In this document: one piece after another, positions 1,299 through 8,965 of the stretch
How positions within the stretch are numbered: position 1 is the stretch's first letter
How the letters are laid out: each line of letters starts with the position of its first letter
NCBI GenBank assembly: GCA_024693415.1
Contig: JAILKX010000216.1
Location: 1-8,965 of the forward strand
Length of the DNA: 8,965 nt
Source: Bacilli bacterium
Lineage (GTDB): Bacteria; Bacillota_I; Bacilli_A; RFN20; CAG-826
Direction: 5' to 3'
The notes under the pieces: generated by a model
Database searches by the model: none
What the model was told of the DNA's origin: nothing
What the model saw: the letters and a program-made list of their open reading frames with translations, nothing else
Program-made: the position numbers and the translations under genes

Positions 1299-3182
1299 TT
1301 AAGCGGTTAAGCTTCCGACGAATTCATCGAGGTACGCATCGTCGTAGAAGTGGTTTAGCGCTAACTCATGGTCGACTGGAACGCCGTCGTCGAAGTGTTC
1401 TGATGGGTCATTGAAATCGCCTTCGCGGCAAAGCCCCGACATGCGGAATGGCAATCCGTCGGGCGTCACGGTGTAGGCGACCGTGCAGGCGCCTCCGCCG
1501 CTTTGCTGGCCGATGATTTTGGCGATGCCGTTTTGTTTGGCGATGGCGGGGAACAGGTTGCCGCAGGAGAAGGAATAATTGGATGTGAGGATATAGAAAT
1601 TGTATTGCCCTTGGTATCCGTCTTCCTCGGTGAACTCGCCATCGAGGTCGGTGTCGACCTGGTAGACCAATTCATCATAGGCTTCCGAAAGAGGGCAGTA
1701 GCTGATGGATTTGTATTCCCTGGCCATGACGCCGAGCATACCGATCAGGGCATTGGAATCGCCGCCGCCGTTGCAGGTGATGTCGAATATCACGTTCTTC
1801 GTGGTTTCGGTGCGTGCTTCAATCTGCTTCATCGTCTGCAGAAAAAGAGCGAAGGTGTCGTTATTATCCGTTGCGTAACGGCTGATGTTGCTGGCGGTCA
1901 GCTCAGCGCCGTAATGCATGAATGAGTCGAAGCTTAAGATCGCCGTTTCGCCTGAGAAACGCACCTCATCGACGGCCACGCCGCTGCGGCTGCGCTTCTG
2001 CACGCAAGCATAGTAATCTTGGCTGAGCTTGGAAGAACGCTCGCTGGTTCTCCCTGAGCGCGAATAATTCCCCTCCCCAAAGGCGGAGGTGACATAGCCG
2101 GCGTTGGTGTGGCCATCGCCGATCACATAATCCATGACGTCCCCGACGGCGTTGCAATAGGTCGTCTCGTTCGCGGAGTGCAATCCCTCGACGATGTCCG
2201 AGTGATTTTTCTCGAGGTAGTCGGAGAAAGGCACGAATCTCTCATCGCGGAAGCCAAAGAAATGGTCGAGTTTGAACATGAGCGCGTTGTAATTGAAATC
2301 GATCATGTAGTCGGGCTTCTTCATCTTGCTCCATGCGCCGGAGTAATATTCTTCGGAGTAGGTCGTATAGGAATAGCTGATGCTTATGGCGCCCGAGAGG
2401 TTGTCGAGCAGATAGAAGGCGGTGCCGTTAAACGCTACCGGAGAATAATAATTTTTGCTGAAGGTCAGCTCGTCGAGGACGGTGAACGGCATGAATGTGC
2501 GGCCGTCGTATTCGATGATGTCCAAATAGTAGCTCTCCAGGTCCAAGGTGATGTCTTTGCTGGCATGGCTTACGGTTTTGGTATCGTCGATGTATTTCGC
2601 CGCGGCAGGGGTGTCGAGCAGCCCGAGCGGAGACCCGTATTTGTCGCTGAATAGGTTCGTCATCGCGTAATTGCGGACCAGAATCGTATCGGCTTCTGGG
2701 TCAAGCGACATGGATAAGCCATTGGGGCAGGTATAGGTCCTGACGCCGTCGGCGGTCTTTATTTCGACCTCAGCATCATAAAGAAAATCGAGGGCGATGA
2801 TCGGGTCCATGTAGATCACCGCAGGCTCATCCGTGCGATACAGGTATTCAAATTCGTCGGCTTTCGACGAAACGAAATCCCTTCCGCTGGCCTTGGGAAT
2901 ATAGAACGGGGCGGTGGCTAAAACGCAATCGTCGTATTCGTTTGAGGAGATGCTGCTCGATTCGGCGGGGCTTGATTCAGCACTGCTCGATTCGGCGGGG
3001 CTTGATTCAGCGCTCGATTCGGCGGCGCTGCTTTCCAGACTGGATGAGATCTCGCTGGAACTTGCTTCGGCGGAAGAGGTGTCAGCGCTGGACTGCTGGA
3101 TGCTGGAGGAATTGGCCCCTCCGCATCCGGCCAAAGCGAGGACGAATGAGAGAGATAGGAGTTTGGTGATTTTGAGTTTCAT
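1299..3182 (-). CDS. Lipoprotein with S41-type serine peptidase domain
   Basis: This 627-residue secreted lipoprotein is probably anchored on the outer face of the membrane. Residues 1-19 form a signal peptide ending in the lipobox LALAGC, with Cys20 as the lipidated residue. Residues 24-80 are a low-complexity Ser/Glu/Ala/Pro linker. A large unassigned region (about 85-300) leads into an S41 (tail-specific/tricorn-like) peptidase domain. Visible there are IGDGHTNAGY (354-363, with His358), NVIFDITCNGGG (463-474) and NYSFSCGN (535-542). By family alignment Ser539 is the probable nucleophile, with Asn542 where many members have Glu. An EF-hand-like loop (510-521) sits just before the nucleophile strand. 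Start ATG 3182 follows AAAGGGG with 10 nt spacing. The gene lies 15 bp after the AraC-type regulator and is likely co-transcribed; a TATTAT box 28 nt before the start could also give its own transcript. The substrate is unknown. Confidence 0.82.
   Translation of the reverse strand: MKLKITKLLSLSFVLALAGCGGANSSSIQQSSADTSSAEASSSEISSSLESSAAESSAESSPAESSSAESSPAESSSISSNEYDDCVLATAPFYIPKASGRDFVSSKADEFEYLYRTDEPAVIYMDPIIALDFLYDAEVEIKTADGVRTYTCPNGLSMSLDPEADTILVRNYAMTNLFSDKYGSPLGLLDTPAAAKYIDDTKTVSHASKDITLDLESYYLDIIEYDGRTFMPFTVLDELTFSKNYYSPVAFNGTAFYLLDNLSGAISISYSYTTYSEEYYSGAWSKMKKPDYMIDFNYNALMFKLDHFFGFRDERFVPFSDYLEKNHSDIVEGLHSANETTYCNAVGDVMDYVIGDGHTNAGYVTSAFGEGNYSRSGRTSERSSKLSQDYYACVQKRSRSGVAVDEVRFSGETAILSFDSFMHYGAELTASNISRYATDNNDTFALFLQTMKQIEARTETTKNVIFDITCNGGGDSNALIGMLGVMAREYKSISYCPLSEAYDELVYQVDTDLDGEFTEEDGYQGQYNFYILTSNYSFSCGNLFPAIAKQNGIAKIIGQQSGGGACTVAYTVTPDGLPFRMSGLCREGDFNDPSEHFDDGVPVDHELALNHFYDDAYLDEFVGSLTA
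2951..3023 (-). repeat. In-gene 30-bp tandem repeat coding the Ser-rich linker
   Basis: On the plus strand the unit TGCTCGATTCGGCGGGGC plus TTGATTCAGCAC begins near 2954 and repeats at 2984 almost unchanged, followed by a partial third copy (CTCGATTCGGCGG, 3012-3024). It encodes SSAESSPAES-type decapeptides in the lipoprotein linker. Near-identical copies suggest recent expansion or slippage; 30 bp keeps the reading frame. Confidence 0.85.
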
Positions 3183-3197: not shown

Positions 3198-4145
3198 TTA
3201 ATCTTTGTTCATAATACGCGCGCATGCGTCTTGTGCAAGGAGAATGGCCTCTTGCTCGCTATAAATGTATTCGAGGATCGAGTCGTCTTTCCTTTTGTCG
3301 GAGACGGGATAGAGGATGTTTTCCTTACGGAATTCTTTGGGCGAGCAATTGAACCGTTTGCGGAATAGCCTTGCCATATATTTGGGGTCGGAGAACCCTG
3401 ATTCGTAAGAGATGTCGATGATGCCTTTCGATGAATTCCTCATGAGGCGGATGGCTAGTTCGAGCCTCCTCTCGTTGATGTAATCCTGGAAGCTGATGCC
3501 AAGGCGGCTGGTGAATAGATGCGAAAGGTGAGCGGTGGTGATGCCTTCGAGGTCAGCAATTTCCTTTTGGTTGATCTTCTCTTGGATGTGCTCGTCGATG
3601 TAATCGATGATGCGCCTCAGCCTTTCGGCGTTCTTCCGCCTGGCATTTATTTCTTTGTTCGTGAGCGATTCGTTGGGGACGTGTATGAATATTTGGTGGA
3701 GAAGGGCGGTCACATAACCAACCGTATTCAGCCGATAATCATCGGCTTCCTGAAAATAGGCAAGCGACGTTTTTATCCCTTGCTCAAATAGGGCCTTCAC
3801 CTCATCGTTCCCCAAGCAGTCCTTCAAATTGATGCAAGCGTACCTGCGCGAATGCATCTCCGGAAGATAATCGGATAGGAAGCGGTTGGATATCTGGATG
3901 AAGAGGTTCACGAACGGCTCGGATTCACTGCTGATCGAGTGGGTTTCGTTCGAATCCAAAAATATAATTTCGCCCTCATTGAGCTCGATGCTTTTGTCCA
4001 AAAAGTAAAATCTACCCTTACCTTTTAGGCAAAAACATAATTCGTAGTCGCCGTGTAAATGTTGGCTCCTATACTTGATTTCGTCGATAAAAATGCGGAT
4101 GTGTCGAATCTTTGGATATCGGACGATCTCGTAACTTTGCTCCAT
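3198..4145 (-). CDS. AraC-family transcriptional regulator, cupin plus HTH_18
   Basis: The gene encodes a probable sugar-responsive DNA-binding activator of the divergent operon. From the start I prefer it has 315 residues. An N-terminal cupin-like sensor domain covers about 20-110 (HLHGDYELCF at 29-38, LNEGEIIFLD at 55-64, ETHS at 67-70). The C-terminal double helix-turn-helix covers about 175-275, with ISYESGFSDPKYMARLFRK at 245-263 and CSPKEFRK at 267-274 typical of AraC/XylS proteins. A 40-residue tail follows. The frame stays open up to 4343, with other ATGs at 4235 and 4211. I choose 4145 because family members usually begin close to a YEIVRYPKI-like segment, because none of the upstream ATGs has a ribosome binding site, and because this leaves room for the repeats and promoters at 4152-4240. 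The effector is unseen; an L-arabinose-like pentose is inferred from the target operon. Confidence 0.85.
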   Translation of the reverse strand: MEQSYEIVRYPKIRHIRIFIDEIKYRSQHLHGDYELCFCLKGKGRFYFLDKSIELNEGEIIFLDSNETHSISSESEPFVNLFIQISNRFLSDYLPEMHSRRYACINLKDCLGNDEVKALFEQGIKTSLAYFQEADDYRLNTVGYVTALLHQIFIHVPNESLTNKEINARRKNAERLRRIIDYIDEHIQEKINQKEIADLEGITTAHLSHLFTSRLGISFQDYINERRLELAIRLMRNSSKGIIDISYESGFSDPKYMARLFRKRFNCSPKEFRKENILYPVSDKRKDDSILEYIYSEQEAILLAQDACARIMNKD

Positions 4146-4248: not shown

Positions 4249-6522
4249 ATGAAAAAATATCTCGGAATCGAATTCGGGTCGACCAGAATCAAAGGTGTTT
4301 TGATCGACGCCGCAGGCAACATCATCGCCTCGGGGGCTTTCAATTGGGAGAACCAGCTCGTCGACGGGGTTTGGAGCTATTCGCTCGACCTCGCGAAGGT
4401 TGGGCTCCGCACCTGCTACAAAGAGCTGAAGGCCGAATACGAAGCTAAATTCAATGAGCCGCTCCGCCATATCGACGCGATCGGCATCTCGGGGATGATG
4501 CACGGCTTCCTCGCTTTGGACAAAAACGACAATCAGCTGTCCAATTTCCGCACCTGGCGCAACACCATCACCGAGCAGGCGGCCACGATCCTTACCGAAA
4601 AGTTCGGATTCGCCGTTCCGCAGAGGTGGTCGGTCGCCCACGCCTATCAGGCGATCCTCAACAAAGAGAAGGAAGTCAAAGACATCGCCTTCATGTCCAC
4701 CTTAGCTGGCTATTTCCATTACCTCTTGACCGGCGAGAAAGTGGTGGGCGTCGGCGAGGCCAGCGGCATGTTCCCGATCGATATTGAGACCAAGGATTAC
4801 AACCAAAGAATGGTACACGTCTTCAACGAATTGGTTGAAAACGATGTGCCATGGCATATCGAAGACATCTTCCCGAAGGTGCTCGTCGCAGGCCAAGAGG
4901 CCGGAAGGCTGACCGAAAAGGGCAGGGACCTCATCGATGAGAGCAAAGAGCTCGAAATCGGCATCCCCCTATGCCCGCCCGAAGGCGATATGGGCACCGG
5001 CATGATCTGCACGAACTCGCTGCGCCCCGGCACCGGCAACGCCTCGATCGGCACCAGCAGCAACGTCACCCTCATCACCGACCACAACATCGGCGTCTAT
5101 AAGGAAATCGACGTCATCACCACCCCAAGCGGCAACCTTGCCGCCCTCGTCCACGTCAATAACGGCACCTCCGAGATCAACGCGTGGGAGAGGCTATTCA
5201 AAGAAACGGTTGCCCAATTTAAACCCGACGTCACCGACGGCGACATCTACCCGATGATGTTCAACATCGCCCTCAAAGGCGACAAGGGATGCACCGGCCT
5301 CTACCCGGTCGACTTCCTCTCGGGAGAGCCCGTCGCCCACGTCAACGAAGGCAAATTGCTTTATATGCGCGAGCCAGACGCAAAAATGGACCTCGCGAAC
5401 TTCTGCCGTTCCCACATCTATTCGCTCCTTGGTGCGATCCGCCTAGGCGTCGATATATTGACCGAAGGCGAGAACGTGAGGCTTACGAAAGTAGTGGGCC
5501 ACGGCGGCTTCTTCAAGACCCCGCGCGTCGGTGAACTCATGCTAAGCGCTGCGCTGAACGTCCCCGTCCTCACCTTATCGAGCGCCGGCGAAGGCGGCCC
5601 ATATGGCCAAGCCCTCCTCGCCGCCTACCTCGTCGAGAAGAAGCCCGGCGAATCGATTGAGGACTACCTCGACAGCCGCATCTTCGCGAGCCAATCCTCC
5701 AACGAAGAGATGGCGAGCCCCGAGGATGTTGAGGGATTCAACCGCTTCATGGAAGGGTACAAGAAAGCCCTCAAAATTGAAAAAGAGGCGATACGTGTAT
5801 TCAAAGTCGAGCCCGAAAGCGGCTATAAAGACATCAAGCAGCGCGTCTACGAAGCCAATATGCGGCTATTGGAGGAAAACCTCATCACATTGACTTGGGG
5901 CAACGCCTCCGAAATCGATCGGAGCCGCGCCATCGTCGCCATCAAGCCTTCCGGCGTCCCCTATGAGATGCTGAAGCCGGAGGACATCGTCGTCATCGAC
6001 CTCGAAGGCAATGTCGTCGAAGGCAAATATAAGCCCTCAAGCGATACGCCCACCCACCTAGAGCTCTATCGGAAGTTCCCCCATATCGGAGGCGTCGTCC
6101 ACACCCATTCGACCTACGCGGTCGCATTCGCGCAAGCGAAGAAGCCGATCAAGTCGCTAGGCACCACCCACGCGGACACCTTCTACCATGAGGTTCCGGT
6201 CACCCGCGACCTCAAGAAGGACGAGATCGATAACGATTACGAGCTGAACACCGGCAAGGTGATCGCCGAAACCTTCGCCGCCCGCGACTATGAGGCAACG
6301 CCAGGAGTCCTCGTCGCTGGGCATGGCCCATTCGTATGGGGCAAGGACGCCAAAGAAGCGGTGGACCACGCCGTTATCCTCGAGAAGGTCGCCCAGATGG
6401 CCCTGCTCACCTACCGCATCAACCCCGATGCCCCGGACATCGATCCGGAGCTCGAAAGCAAACATTACCAAAGGAAACATGGGAAAAACGCCTATTACGG
6501 GCAGAAGGAGAAAAACCAATGA
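4249..6522 (+). CDS. Fused FGGY sugar kinase and L-ribulose-5-phosphate 4-epimerase
   Basis: This 757-residue protein joins two full cytoplasmic enzymes. Residues 1 to about 515 are an FGGY kinase: phosphate-1 motif GIEFGSTRIKG (6-16), GISGMMHG (79-86), probable catalytic Asp247 in PEGDMGTGM, phosphate-2 motif GTGNASIGTSS (261-271) and adenosine motif from VVGHGGFFKTP (415-425) to GEGGPYG (447-453). It resembles Bacillota/Actinobacteria FGGY kinases found beside araA and araD rather than classical AraB. Residues about 527-752 match E. coli AraD almost end to end. Zinc ligands His618, His620 and His692 match H95, H97 and H171. Asp599, Asp643, His739 and Tyr750 match D76, D120, H218 and Y229. 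Predicted reactions are phosphorylation of L-ribulose and epimerisation to D-xylulose-5-phosphate. ATG 4249 starts the usual MKKYLGIEFGST opening. The stop overlaps the next gene by 4 bp. Domain calls are firm; the substrate is inferred. Confidence 0.92.
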   Translation: MKKYLGIEFGSTRIKGVLIDAAGNIIASGAFNWENQLVDGVWSYSLDLAKVGLRTCYKELKAEYEAKFNEPLRHIDAIGISGMMHGFLALDKNDNQLSNFRTWRNTITEQAATILTEKFGFAVPQRWSVAHAYQAILNKEKEVKDIAFMSTLAGYFHYLLTGEKVVGVGEASGMFPIDIETKDYNQRMVHVFNELVENDVPWHIEDIFPKVLVAGQEAGRLTEKGRDLIDESKELEIGIPLCPPEGDMGTGMICTNSLRPGTGNASIGTSSNVTLITDHNIGVYKEIDVITTPSGNLAALVHVNNGTSEINAWERLFKETVAQFKPDVTDGDIYPMMFNIALKGDKGCTGLYPVDFLSGEPVAHVNEGKLLYMREPDAKMDLANFCRSHIYSLLGAIRLGVDILTEGENVRLTKVVGHGGFFKTPRVGELMLSAALNVPVLTLSSAGEGGPYGQALLAAYLVEKKPGESIEDYLDSRIFASQSSNEEMASPEDVEGFNRFMEGYKKALKIEKEAIRVFKVEPESGYKDIKQRVYEANMRLLEENLITLTWGNASEIDRSRAIVAIKPSGVPYEMLKPEDIVVIDLEGNVVEGKYKPSSDTPTHLELYRKFPHIGGVVHTHSTYAVAFAQAKKPIKSLGTTHADTFYHEVPVTRDLKKDEIDNDYELNTGKVIAETFAARDYEATPGVLVAGHGPFVWGKDAKEAVDHAVILEKVAQMALLTYRINPDAPDIDPELESKHYQRKHGKNAYYGQKEKNQ
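6505..6510 (+). promoter_or_regulatory. Ribosome binding site selecting the isomerase start
   Basis: AAGGAG lies 8 nt before ATG 6519, inside the last codons of the kinase-epimerase gene. The open frame extends upstream to 6336, but those codons overlap the AraD domain and have no such site. Confidence 0.85.
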
Positions 6523-8000
6523 ACAACATCCCACAAGTCAAAGTCGGCATCGTCGCAGTGAGCAGGGATTGCTTCCCGCTCGAGCTGTCCATCAAAAGGC
6601 GTAAGGCCCTCGTGGAGGCTTACCATAAGCTCTACAACGACGTCGACATCTATGAATGCCCCATCTGCATCTTCGAATCCGAGATCGACATGGTCAATTC
6701 GCTCAAGGACATCAAGGAGCACGGCTGCAACGCCCTATGCGTCTTCCTTGGCAACTTCGGCCCCGAGATCTCCGAGACACTTCTTGCCAAGCACTTCGAT
6801 GGCCCGAAGATGTTCTGCGCCGCCGAAGAGGAGAACATCGGCGTCCTTTCTAGCGACCGCGGCGATGCCTACTGCGGCATGCTGAACGCCTCGTACAACC
6901 TGAAGCTCCGCAACGTCAAGGCCTACATCCCCGAATCGCCGGTCGGCGATGCCGAGGACTGCGCCAAGATGATTCACGACTTCCTCCCGATCGCGCGCGC
7001 CGTCATCGGGCTAAGCAAGCTCAAGATCATCTCCTTCGGCCCCCGCCCCCAGAACTTCCTCGCCTGCAACGCCCCGATCAAGCAGCTCTATAACCTCGGC
7101 GTCGAAATCGAGGAGAACAGTGAGCTCGACCTCTATGAGTCGTTCTTGAAGCACGCGGACGACCCCCGCATCCCCGAAGTCGTCGAGGATATGAAGAAGG
7201 AGCTCGGCGCCGGCAACAAAATCCCGGCCGTCTTACCGAAACTAGCCCAGTACGAATTGACCCTCTTGGATTGGGTCGAGAACCACAAAGGGTATCGCGA
7301 ATACGTCGCGATCGCCGGCAAGTGCTGGCCCGCGTTCCAGACGATGTTCGGATTCGTCCCGTGCTACGTGAACTCTAGGCTCACCGGACGCGGCATCCCC
7401 GTCTCCTGCGAAGTCGATATCTATGGCTGCTTAAGCGAATACATCGGCACCTGCGTAAGCGAGGACGTCGTCACCCTCCTCGACATCAACAACACCGTCC
7501 CGAAGGAGATGTACAAGGCATCGATCGAAGGCAAGTTCGACTACAAGTTCAGGGATACCTTCATGGGCTTCCACTGCGGCAACACCTGCTCGAAGCTCAT
7601 GTGCCACCCCGAGATGAAGTATCAGAAGATCATGGCAAGGTCGCTCCCCCGCGAAGTCACTAACGGCACCTTAGAGGGCGACATCAAAGACGGTGACATC
7701 ACCTTCTACAGATTGCAGTCCACCGCCGACGGCCATCTCTATTCCTATGTGGCCGAAGGCGAGATCCTCCCGGTCGCGACCCATTCCTTCGGCTCGATCG
7801 CGGTCTTCGCGATCCACGAGATGGAGAGGTTCTACCGCCACGCCCTGATCGGCAATGGCTTCCCCCATCACGGAGCCGTCGCCTTCGGCCACCATGGCAA
7901 AGCCCTCTATGAGGTCTTCAAGTACCTCGGCGCCGAGAAAGTGCTCTACAACCAGCCTGCTAACCTTCCCTATCCGGAAGAGAACCCCTTCAAGGACTAA
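6519..8000 (+). CDS. L-fucose/L-arabinose isomerase-family sugar isomerase
   Basis: The 493-residue cytoplasmic ketol isomerase belongs to the L-fucose isomerase fold family and should interconvert an aldose and a ketose with a divalent metal. Likely metal ligands are Glu298 (in CEVDIYG), Asp322 (in LLDINN) and a His in FPHHGAV (450-451). The Glu-to-Asp gap of 24 residues equals that between E337 and D361 of E. coli FucI. FHCGNTC at 351-357 is another family-like segment. At 493 residues it is much shorter than E. coli FucI (591), so it is a divergent member. ATG 6519 overlaps the upstream TGA by 4 bp (ATGA), which suggests translational coupling with the kinase-epimerase. No separate AraA-type isomerase is present in the window, so this enzyme probably supplies the ketopentose to the kinase. 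L-arabinose is the simplest substrate; D-arabinose or L-fucose cannot be excluded. Confidence 0.85.
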   Translation: MNNIPQVKVGIVAVSRDCFPLELSIKRRKALVEAYHKLYNDVDIYECPICIFESEIDMVNSLKDIKEHGCNALCVFLGNFGPEISETLLAKHFDGPKMFCAAEEENIGVLSSDRGDAYCGMLNASYNLKLRNVKAYIPESPVGDAEDCAKMIHDFLPIARAVIGLSKLKIISFGPRPQNFLACNAPIKQLYNLGVEIEENSELDLYESFLKHADDPRIPEVVEDMKKELGAGNKIPAVLPKLAQYELTLLDWVENHKGYREYVAIAGKCWPAFQTMFGFVPCYVNSRLTGRGIPVSCEVDIYGCLSEYIGTCVSEDVVTLLDINNTVPKEMYKASIEGKFDYKFRDTFMGFHCGNTCSKLMCHPEMKYQKIMARSLPREVTNGTLEGDIKDGDITFYRLQSTADGHLYSYVAEGEILPVATHSFGSIAVFAIHEMERFYRHALIGNGFPHHGAVAFGHHGKALYEVFKYLGAEKVLYNQPANLPYPEENPFKD

Positions 8001-8003
8001 GCG

Positions 8004-8609
8004 ATGAAAGTCTACAGTGTCCACGACAAGGAGTTTGCCGAGTTCGGCAGGGTTCTGCAGGGAAATTTTGAGGAATTGCTCGGTTTACTAGGCAACACCC
8101 CGCTCCCTGAGGAAGGCACGATCTATTGCCCTGGCGACCCCGCATTAGAACGCCCGGAGATCGTCTCCTTCTTCGAGAAGAACGTCTACGGCGAGATGCC
8201 GGTCCAACTCGGCTACTGCAACGGCCATAACCAGAAGCTCAATTGCCTTGAGTATCACAAAGGCAATGAGGTGAACCTCGCTAACGAGGATTTCATCCTG
8301 TTGCTTGGAAGCTATTTCGACATCGAAGGTGGCAAATTGGACACCAAGAAGGTCAAAGCCTTCCGCGTCCCCGCCAAAACCGCGGTCGAGATCTATCAAA
8401 GCAGCCTCCATTACGCCCCCTGCGGCATAAATGGCTCCCCCTTCAGGGTTCTAGTGGTCCTCCCCAAAGGCACAAACGTCAATCCCATAAGAGGATCAGA
8501 GGATAAATTGCTCTGGGCCACCAACAAATGGCTCTTGGCCCACCCCGAATCCAAAGAGGCCAAACAAGGCGCCTACATCGGCCTATCCGGCGATAACATC
8601 GAAATCTAA
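8004..8609 (+). CDS. DUF4867-family protein, cupin-like, unknown function
   Basis: This 201-residue soluble protein matches my recollection of DUF4867, a family seen beside sugar isomerase, FGGY kinase and class II aldolase genes. Visible conserved-looking segments are GYCNGHNQKLNCLEYHKG (70-87), DFILLLG (96-102), FRVPAKTAVEIY (120-131), LHYAPC (135-140), FRVLVVLPKGTN (147-158) and LWATNKWLLAHPE (170-182). His75, Glu83, His85 and His136 sit on beta-rich stretches and could form a cupin-type metal site, which is inference. The gene starts 3 bp after the isomerase stop. AAGGA (7992-7996) lies 7 nt before ATG 8004, and a strong terminator follows the gene. It is therefore the last gene of the sugar operon. 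A mutarotase, epimerase or sugar-phosphate accessory role is plausible from context, but no activity can be assigned. Confidence 0.8.
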   Translation: MKVYSVHDKEFAEFGRVLQGNFEELLGLLGNTPLPEEGTIYCPGDPALERPEIVSFFEKNVYGEMPVQLGYCNGHNQKLNCLEYHKGNEVNLANEDFILLLGSYFDIEGGKLDTKKVKAFRVPAKTAVEIYQSSLHYAPCGINGSPFRVLVVLPKGTNVNPIRGSEDKLLWATNKWLLAHPESKEAKQGAYIGLSGDNIEI

Positions 8610-8629: not shown

Positions 8630-8656
8630 AGCCCTGAATCGCCTCAGGGCTTTTTT
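8630..8656 (+). terminator. Rho-independent terminator of the sugar operon
   Basis: The perfect stem AGCCCTGA (8630-8637) pairs with TCAGGGCT (8644-8651) around the loop ATCGCC, running into six T residues (8651-8656). It lies 20 bp after the DUF4867 stop codon. Confidence 0.95.
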
Positions 8657-8834: not shown

Positions 8835-8965
8835 TCACATCAGGCTCTTGTAAAGCTTGATGACGGTTTCCTTGTCGATTGGGGCGGGGTTGCCGGGCAT
8901 GCAGGCGTCGGCCATCGCGCAGTCGGCGAGGTAGTCGAGGTCCTCTTCTTTGACGATGCCCTTGA
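8835..8965 (-). CDS. C-terminal end of iron-containing alcohol dehydrogenase (partial)
   Basis: Only the last 43 residues lie inside the window; the rest continues past its right edge. The tail reads LADCAMADACMPGNPAP, then DKETVIKLYKSLM and a TGA stop. An ADxxMADACMPGNP-type segment followed by a short LYK-like helix is the usual C-terminus of group III iron-dependent alcohol dehydrogenases, including lactaldehyde reductase FucO and butanol-type dehydrogenases. The iron and NAD(P) sites are not in view, so the substrate cannot be set. The gene is convergent with the sugar operon and separated from it by two terminators, so it is transcribed independently. A link to pentose or deoxysugar fermentation is possible but rests on neighbourhood only. 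Confidence 0.85.
   Translation of the reverse strand, partial: KGIVKEEDLDYLADCAMADACMPGNPAPIDKETVIKLYKSLM

Follow-up and report, generated by a model that had tools for sequence, protein, structure and literature searches.

A recurrent kinase-epimerase fusion gene in Bacilli, probably of AraB-AraD type, beside a FucI-family isomerase

L-ribulokinase (AraB) and L-ribulose-5-phosphate 4-epimerase (AraD) are usually separate proteins, as a preliminary description of the locus studied here correctly held. On contig JAILKX010000216.1 of a Bacilli bacterium (GenBank assembly GCA_024693415.1), of which we analysed a stretch of 8,965 nucleotides (the window), one gene appears to encode both, raising the questions of whether the join is real, which sugar it serves and how it arose. 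From its reading frame, domains and conserved residues, its recurrence and its operon contexts, we propose that the gene is a genuine AraB-AraD fusion serving L-arabinose breakdown via L-ribulose, with a FucI-family isomerase in AraA's place; we assign this reading a probability of roughly 70%. Both halves would be active enzymes: the FucI-family protein, presumably co-transcribed, would convert L-arabinose to L-ribulose in place of AraA, the N-terminal domain of the fusion would phosphorylate L-ribulose with ATP, and the C-terminal domain would epimerise L-ribulose-5-phosphate at C4 to give D-xylulose-5-phosphate. Two polypeptides may in this way take L-arabinose to D-xylulose-5-phosphate.

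The gene is a single frame from the ATG at 4249 to the TGA at 6520-6522, with no internal stops. FGGY_N (residues 4-225; 63.3 bits, cut-off 28.8), FGGY_C (264-460; 69.2 bits, cut-off 27) and Aldolase_II (531-719; 175.6 bits, cut-off 22.2) all exceed their Pfam cut-offs, bearing out the claim that two consecutive pathway enzymes lie on one chain with the kinase first. With both of its domains above the gathering score, the N-terminal half is classed as an FGGY carbohydrate kinase. The C-terminal half passes two AraD models, NF006047 (355.6; cut-off 257) and NF009003 (339; cut-off 331), and aligns to E. coli AraD (1jdi) over nearly its full length; a Foldseek search gave a template modelling (TM) score of 0.96 on that target, with 52% identity in the structural alignment. 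The E. coli enzyme shares fold and active-site positions with the epimerase half but is a stand-alone protein, whereas the epimerase here lies C-terminal to a kinase on one chain. Active-site residues were correctly reported for both domains: all 14 of the E. coli AraD positions examined, which we take to be its metal and catalytic positions, are conserved, and the kinase carries the motifs MMHG (residues 83-86) and PEGDMGTG. The first FGGY acidic residue is Glu8 (window 4270-4272), nearly invariant across 15 aligned fused proteins; xylulokinase 5vm1 has Asp there. By fold, the kinase half scored 0.85 against xylulokinase 5vm1 and up to 0.76 against ribulokinase 3qdk (target-normalised TM).

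We considered whether the single frame is an assembly or sequencing artefact in which a stop or frameshift between two genes was lost from the contig; the preliminary description had named loss of a stop between residues 510 and 530 as the danger. Stand-alone kinases 64-78% identical to the kinase part do exist and end at about the matching point (P0012, P0015-P0017, P0019-P0022, P0025, P0026), and those at 66-78% (P0012, P0015-P0017, P0019-P0022) speak for such an artefact. Against it, ten database proteins (P0002-P0011) 62-75% identical to the fusion carry both domains with the same kind of junction, P0008 lacking the kinase start, and the linker residues differ among fused relatives, the linker being short throughout the window clade. 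Independent assemblies agree: a scan of GTDB contigs gave 45 loci, of which L001, L003 and L004 hold the whole fusion and L002 holds it up to residue 611, where the contig ends. These four records are Bacilli or Erysipelotrichaceae metagenome-assembled genomes, L001 from the rumen of a goat and L004 from the abomasum of a water deer. At the level of the group, the relatives refute the artefact, and for the window itself it is extremely improbable. Since the same kind of junction occurs in diverged relatives and independent assemblies, we conclude that comparison of sequences confirms the fusion as genuine and not a sequencing error.

The fusion is also found further afield. Two more fused proteins, P0013 and P0014, are about 50% identical, and the source record of P0013 (Blautia sp. 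AF34-10) names it L-ribulose-5-phosphate 4-epimerase. In the GTDB order of G003, 108 of 279 genomes match the fusion protein at E 0.001 and ten have a one-frame fusion; the fusion genomes are G001, G003, G004, G050, G051, G060, G065, G069 and G071, with G002 up to the contig end. The genome scan reported one stop in G065, yet an unbroken 778-residue frame there has both domains; in G221 and G171 both domains are spanned, but by two genes. Fused proteins that are damaged or partial also occur (P0018, P0023, P0024); P0023 and P0024 are short of about 60-80 residues, comprising the C-terminal tail of the kinase and the N-terminus of the epimerase, by deletion or assembly artefact. Among IMG/VR viral contigs, 19 pattern matches included no relative of the fusion. 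Three phage-labelled records (OR848169, OR846767, MT835506) have two pieces, about 50% identical to the fusion protein, that together span 98% of it; our guess is that they probably contain host DNA.

An AlphaFold2 model of the fusion had a mean predicted local distance difference test score (pLDDT) of 91.5 and a predicted TM score (pTM) of 0.68, the latter saying little on how the halves sit together. In the model, a long helix (491-518) closes the kinase, a loop follows (519-526), and a helix (527-542) opens the epimerase. By eye, the region near the junction offers no start codon with a Shine-Dalgarno-like stretch from which the epimerase could be made on its own. Production of a free epimerase from an internal start was likewise rejected, the first in-frame ATG 3' of the junction being residue 538, inside the domain.

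Which sugar the fusion serves is best judged from its neighbours. The order divergent AraC-family gene, fusion, isomerase, DUF4867 gene is common to L001, L003 and L004, and in the window the isomerase start overlaps the fusion stop as ATGA. The preliminary description missed both that the fusion recurs and that the adjoining isomerase is a FucI-family protein, not AraA: PF02952 is its sole Pfam match, and PF02610, the mark of a canonical AraA, is absent. Across the window and ten fusion loci, the FucI-family isomerase is in the operon in six (window, L001, L003, L004, L134, L136). L134 and L136 have a xylulokinase gene and a DUF4867 gene between fusion and isomerase, which in L134 is in two frames; their XylB proteins pass the cut-off (556 and 578 against 380). 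Canonical AraA, confirmed by PF02610, accompanies three fusions, adjoining in L135 and with one esterase/lipase-like gene between in L137 and L138. L133 has neither isomerase nor AraA on its 8.4 kb contig, and L002 is cut.

Unfused relatives of the kinase extend this pattern. Enterococcus raffinosus (NZ_CP081847) and Limosilactobacillus fermentum (CP033372) have araB-araD operons with the same kinase family, 48.6% and 43.1% identical to the kinase part, and AraD directly 3'; unlike the fusion, these are two genes, 12 and 10 bases apart, and go with a canonical AraA rather than a FucI-family protein. AraA follows AraD in E. raffinosus; in L. fermentum it lies roughly 3 kb beyond, and the order in T. 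saccharophilum is kinase-AraA-AraD. For Monoglobus pectinilyticus, the gene table, which is incomplete, lists no ara gene near the kinase. An unannotated Subdoligranulum variabile record has frames for AraC-like, XylB-like, DUF4867, isomerase, kinase and AraD proteins (isomerase and kinase by tblastn, the others by eye), and in L145 a kinase adjoining AraD shares its operon with the isomerase and a separate XylB (by eye). Unfused kinase and epimerase genes are neighbours together with AraA in L121, L122, L123, L129 and L139 (L126 has AraA between them), and together with the FucI-family isomerase in L005, L021, L024, L025, L043, L044, L128 and L131; the isomerase lies between them in L127 and L140. 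L124 combines kinase and isomerase, the epimerase being located elsewhere (L125); in L034 kinase and epimerase adjoin neither type of isomerase, and in L029 kinase and AraA have no epimerase adjoining. No epimerase lay within the fetched stretch in 34 of the 45 loci of the GTDB contig scan. Some copies appear to be decaying: the kinase of L043 (3225-4750) is in two frames, L056 (4503-4781) is an isomerase remnant, and a kinase-epimerase frame in L130 (3594-4868) lacks the kinase N-terminus.

Named bacteria thus have members of the kinase family together with AraD and AraA, and three fusions have a canonical AraA adjoining or one gene off, so that context supports the proposed L-arabinose pathway. 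From these neighbourhoods, L-ribulose is the most probable substrate for the fused kinase. Where the operon also has a separate XylB (L134, L136 and, by eye, L145), the other kinase would be left for L-ribulose.

We infer that the FucI-family isomerase replaces AraA. Neither PF02610 AraA nor TIGR02630 XylA was found in any of five genomes (G001-G005, the fused group and a split relative), a soft absence, as completeness figures were not given. By comparison, PF02610 exceeds its cut-off in 6 (3 strongly) and XylA exceeds its own in 23 of 40 other genomes with the kinase; in 18 further genomes each was found in 9. The best structural model of the isomerase had a pLDDT of 87.3 and a pTM of 0.90, three of the five models having mean pLDDT of 67-76. 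The best 33 of 50 Foldseek matches listed are arabinose isomerases (TM 0.72-0.78, 12-16% identity), which rank ahead of D-arabinose and L-fucose isomerases. Single and profile searches of PDB sequences gave no match to the isomerase at 0.001. Close isomerase relatives (at least 424 bits) are present in 20 of the 40 kinase-bearing genomes. A sulfoquinovose pathway was rejected for this isomerase: the SftI model scored 65.8 against 700 bits, and other, shorter isomerases in fusion genomes fit better. In L050, L052 and L053 (genomes G002, G001 and G004), a 442-443-residue PF02952-like isomerase, a DUF4867-like gene and a TauE-like permease lie 3' of a dehydrogenase-like gene, a set resembling a sulfoquinovose (sulfo-SFT) cluster by eye and by length, the Pfam match apart.

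DUF4867 lies 3' of the isomerase in the window, L001, L003, L004, L064, L124 and L140 and 5' of it in L134, L136 and L145; it was not found beside the isomerase in others, such as L005, L024 and L127. In the part of PMC11968277 available to us, a ketose mutarotase role is suggested for DUF4867, for which no activity was found.

The FucI-family isomerase may also act on D-xylose, given three operons that pair it with XylB and an AraB-type kinase (L134, L136 and, by eye, L145) and the precedent of XylA-II of Clostridium acetobutylicum (CAC2610), a PF02952 xylose isomerase established experimentally, according to the accessible part of PMC2873477. Compared by family only and within the same part of that source, XylA-II shares with the window isomerase its Pfam family and an association with an FGGY kinase; it is a xylose enzyme, whereas the window isomerase adjoins an AraD domain. 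An alternative reading builds on this precedent. The kinase would be mainly a xylulokinase, or a kinase of two substrates, the FucI-family protein a xylose or two-substrate isomerase of the XylA-II kind, and the operon would handle both pentoses, the fused epimerase feeding L-arabinose into the same route. A C. saccharobutylicum operon comprises an L-fucose isomerase gene, DUF4867, transketolase and xylB, the last being needed for xylose and dispensable for arabinose (PMC6158908, as far as the portion seen goes), and isomerase, kinase and a transketolase-like gene (by eye) lie together in L022 and L032. The lack of both AraA and XylA in G001-G005 also favours this alternative. Where XylB is in the same operon, however, the kinase that is fused or linked to AraD comes in addition to it, and named organisms have members of the kinase family alongside AraA and AraD; we regard the alternative as unlikely, if the most serious competitor.

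Several observations nonetheless weigh against the L-arabinose reading. The preliminary description rightly held that the kinase is not of the classical AraB type: no ribulokinase model (TIGR01234 or NF003154) is among the best 25 of 30 NCBIfam matches, any further match being weak since the 25th has an E value of 6.4e-9, and both models are absent from the complete model list of the split relative L021. A plain XylB was rejected, TIGR01312 scoring 106.4 bits against a cut-off of 380.25. In AraB-III proteins of Firmicutes, Met and His stand consecutively at signature positions one and two; MMHG fits this pattern, which is equally found in GntK and XylB-I, according to the part of PMC3245297 available to us. 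On the epimerase side, TIGR00760 araD (335.6) is below its cut-off of 389.1, as are four further epimerase models below theirs, and the low pTM leaves the arrangement of the halves uncertain. Other XylB-like FGGY kinases also occur in fusion genomes (L084, L085, L087, L089). Of the 40 other genomes with the kinase, half lack an AraD match above 300 bits. A full XylA over the cut-off is present in 16 of these 20, as opposed to 7 of the 20 that have AraD; where XylA occurs and AraD does not, members of the kinase family may act on D-xylulose. In seven of the AraD-lacking 20 (G009, G010, G013, G014, G016, G017, G019) a close isomerase accompanies XylA or pieces of it, so the isomerase there cannot simply be the entry to the AraD route. 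L-ribulose and D-xylulose differ at C4 only, and the fused kinase may therefore accept both.

How did the fusion arise? An ancestral operon would have had an FGGY L-ribulokinase gene of the Enterococcus/Limosilactobacillus type directly 5' of araD, and loss of the kinase stop and epimerase start would have produced a single reading frame. In unfused operons the kinase stop overlaps the epimerase start as TGATG (L024, L034, L043, L044) or TAATG (L021), and kinase and epimerase look translationally coupled there; others have a gap of 8-15 bases with a ribosome-site-like stretch (L121, L122, L139, L141, L145) or of 35-40 bases (L005, L128). The linker of P0013 keeps MLEELKKRV, like the free AraD start in L005, L021, L024, L043 and L128.

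We built a kinase tree from the 45 loci and 29 of 120 listed search proteins (26 of the first 30, plus P0042, P0047 and P0056; P0023, P0024, P0027 and P0029 were not taken), leaving 63 rows, 23 of them fused, after removal of fragment P0018, identical rows and short matches. The fusion label needs eight changes on this tree; well-supported branches force at least five of them, and in none of the bootstrap trees did one change suffice. For 15 protein rows 'not fused' is taken from protein records alone; with these set aside, four changes are still needed. On the epimerase tree the label needs six changes, at least three forced, and the count stays at six if the partial fusion L130, labelled not fused, is relabelled. 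A further tree of 98 rows was made by a quick method. Forcing eleven fused rows into one clade was 58 log-likelihood units worse (approximately unbiased (AU) test, p 0.0024), a p value that is not blind, as the 25 rows (11 of the 23 fused; long-branch L133 omitted) were picked after seeing the trees. A single origin has no support from the trees, and one clade is rejected by the AU test. Repeated fusion, or fusion with repeated splitting, is likely, although gains and losses look alike in counts of label changes. In the epimerase tree an unfused epimerase, that of G036 (L055), is nested in the fused clade, which suggests at least one later separation of fused halves.

The most likely benefit of the fusion, and the least demanding, is strict 1:1 co-production of two enzymes. 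Channelling between the halves, which the preliminary description had raised, is possible but unsupported. A special biochemical purpose, in which L-ribulose-5-phosphate passes between sites or tetramer formation by the epimerase imposes a tetrameric, differently regulated state on the kinase, would sit well with fusions having arisen or been kept in several clades and with the short linker of the window clade; interdomain placement is uncertain, though, the listed stand-alone kinases nest among fused ones in the kinase tree, so that the join is probably not strictly needed, and plain stop-loss between coupled neighbours accounts for the recurrence. We consider such a purpose doubtful, less probable than the xylose-based alternative. 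Equally doubtful is the fullest version of the proposal, a two-polypeptide L-arabinose route in which an AraA-fold FucI-family isomerase takes L-arabinose and D-xylose and a repeatedly evolved, tetrameric AraB-AraD fusion hands over L-ribulose-5-phosphate.

Features of the window around the fused gene
Feature	Position	Strand	Basis and remarks
Fused kinase-epimerase gene	4249..6522	+	757 residues and stop; reading frame, Pfam, NCBIfam
Kinase part, residues 1-518 (FGGY_N, FGGY_C, C-terminal helix 491-518)	4249..5802	+	Pfam, AlphaFold2 model; stand-alone kinase relatives end at about the same point
Junction, about 7 residues (519-525)	5803..5823	+	Model and by-eye reading
AraD-type epimerase part, residues 526-757	5824..6519	+	Pfam, NCBIfam, 1jdi alignment, Foldseek
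FucI-family (PF02952) isomerase	6519..8000	+	Pfam; L-arabinose isomerase is the nearest match to its predicted fold
DUF4867 cupin-type protein	8004..8609	+	Pfam; literature
Terminator-like stem with T run, 3' of DUF4867	8630..8656	+	1 found, 0.6 expected in shuffles; weak alone
AraC-family regulator, divergent	3198..4145	-	Pfam; start likely 4145, from comparison with relatives

Elsewhere in the window, 1299-3182 on the minus strand encodes a lipoprotein-like protein in which the signal is followed by a long Ser/Ala/Glu repeat and which has an S41 peptidase domain; a relative (27% identity) is encoded near the fusion in L134. Positions 427-1221 encode a membrane protein of the TMEM164 / TP0381 type, the TP0381 model being below its cut-off. 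A frame that leaves the window (8842-8963, minus strand) is a C-terminal piece resembling, by eye, the end of an iron-containing alcohol dehydrogenase.

The join of kinase and epimerase is a variation on a well-known pathway, and neighbouring genes of an operon are well known to fuse. Fusions of IolC-type and other sugar kinases to the next pathway enzyme embody a similar idea in other pathways and folds. FGGY-FGGY-DUF4867 multidomain proteins, described in the accessible part of PMC11968277, likewise join an FGGY kinase to a partner from the same kind of operon, the partner there being DUF4867 and here an epimerase. Among the matches listed from open-licence literature, no description of an AraB-AraD fusion was found in titles or the starts of abstracts, and the words 'fused' and 'fusion' are absent from the available portions of the FGGY family paper (PMC3245297) and of two papers on Bifidobacterium araBDA (PMC5928203, PMC13011590).

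The fusion offers a recurrent natural test case for why operon neighbours fuse. Among related bacteria the two enzymes come either from adjacent separate genes or as a single polypeptide, and what fusion does to flux and assembly can be measured directly. The locus further hints that rumen and gut bacteria use an isomerase other than AraA for L-arabinose, and it draws attention to kinases whose annotation goes no further than FGGY-family carbohydrate kinase or ATPase. Engineering of pentose use could profit from a ready-made route for arabinose that takes two proteins.

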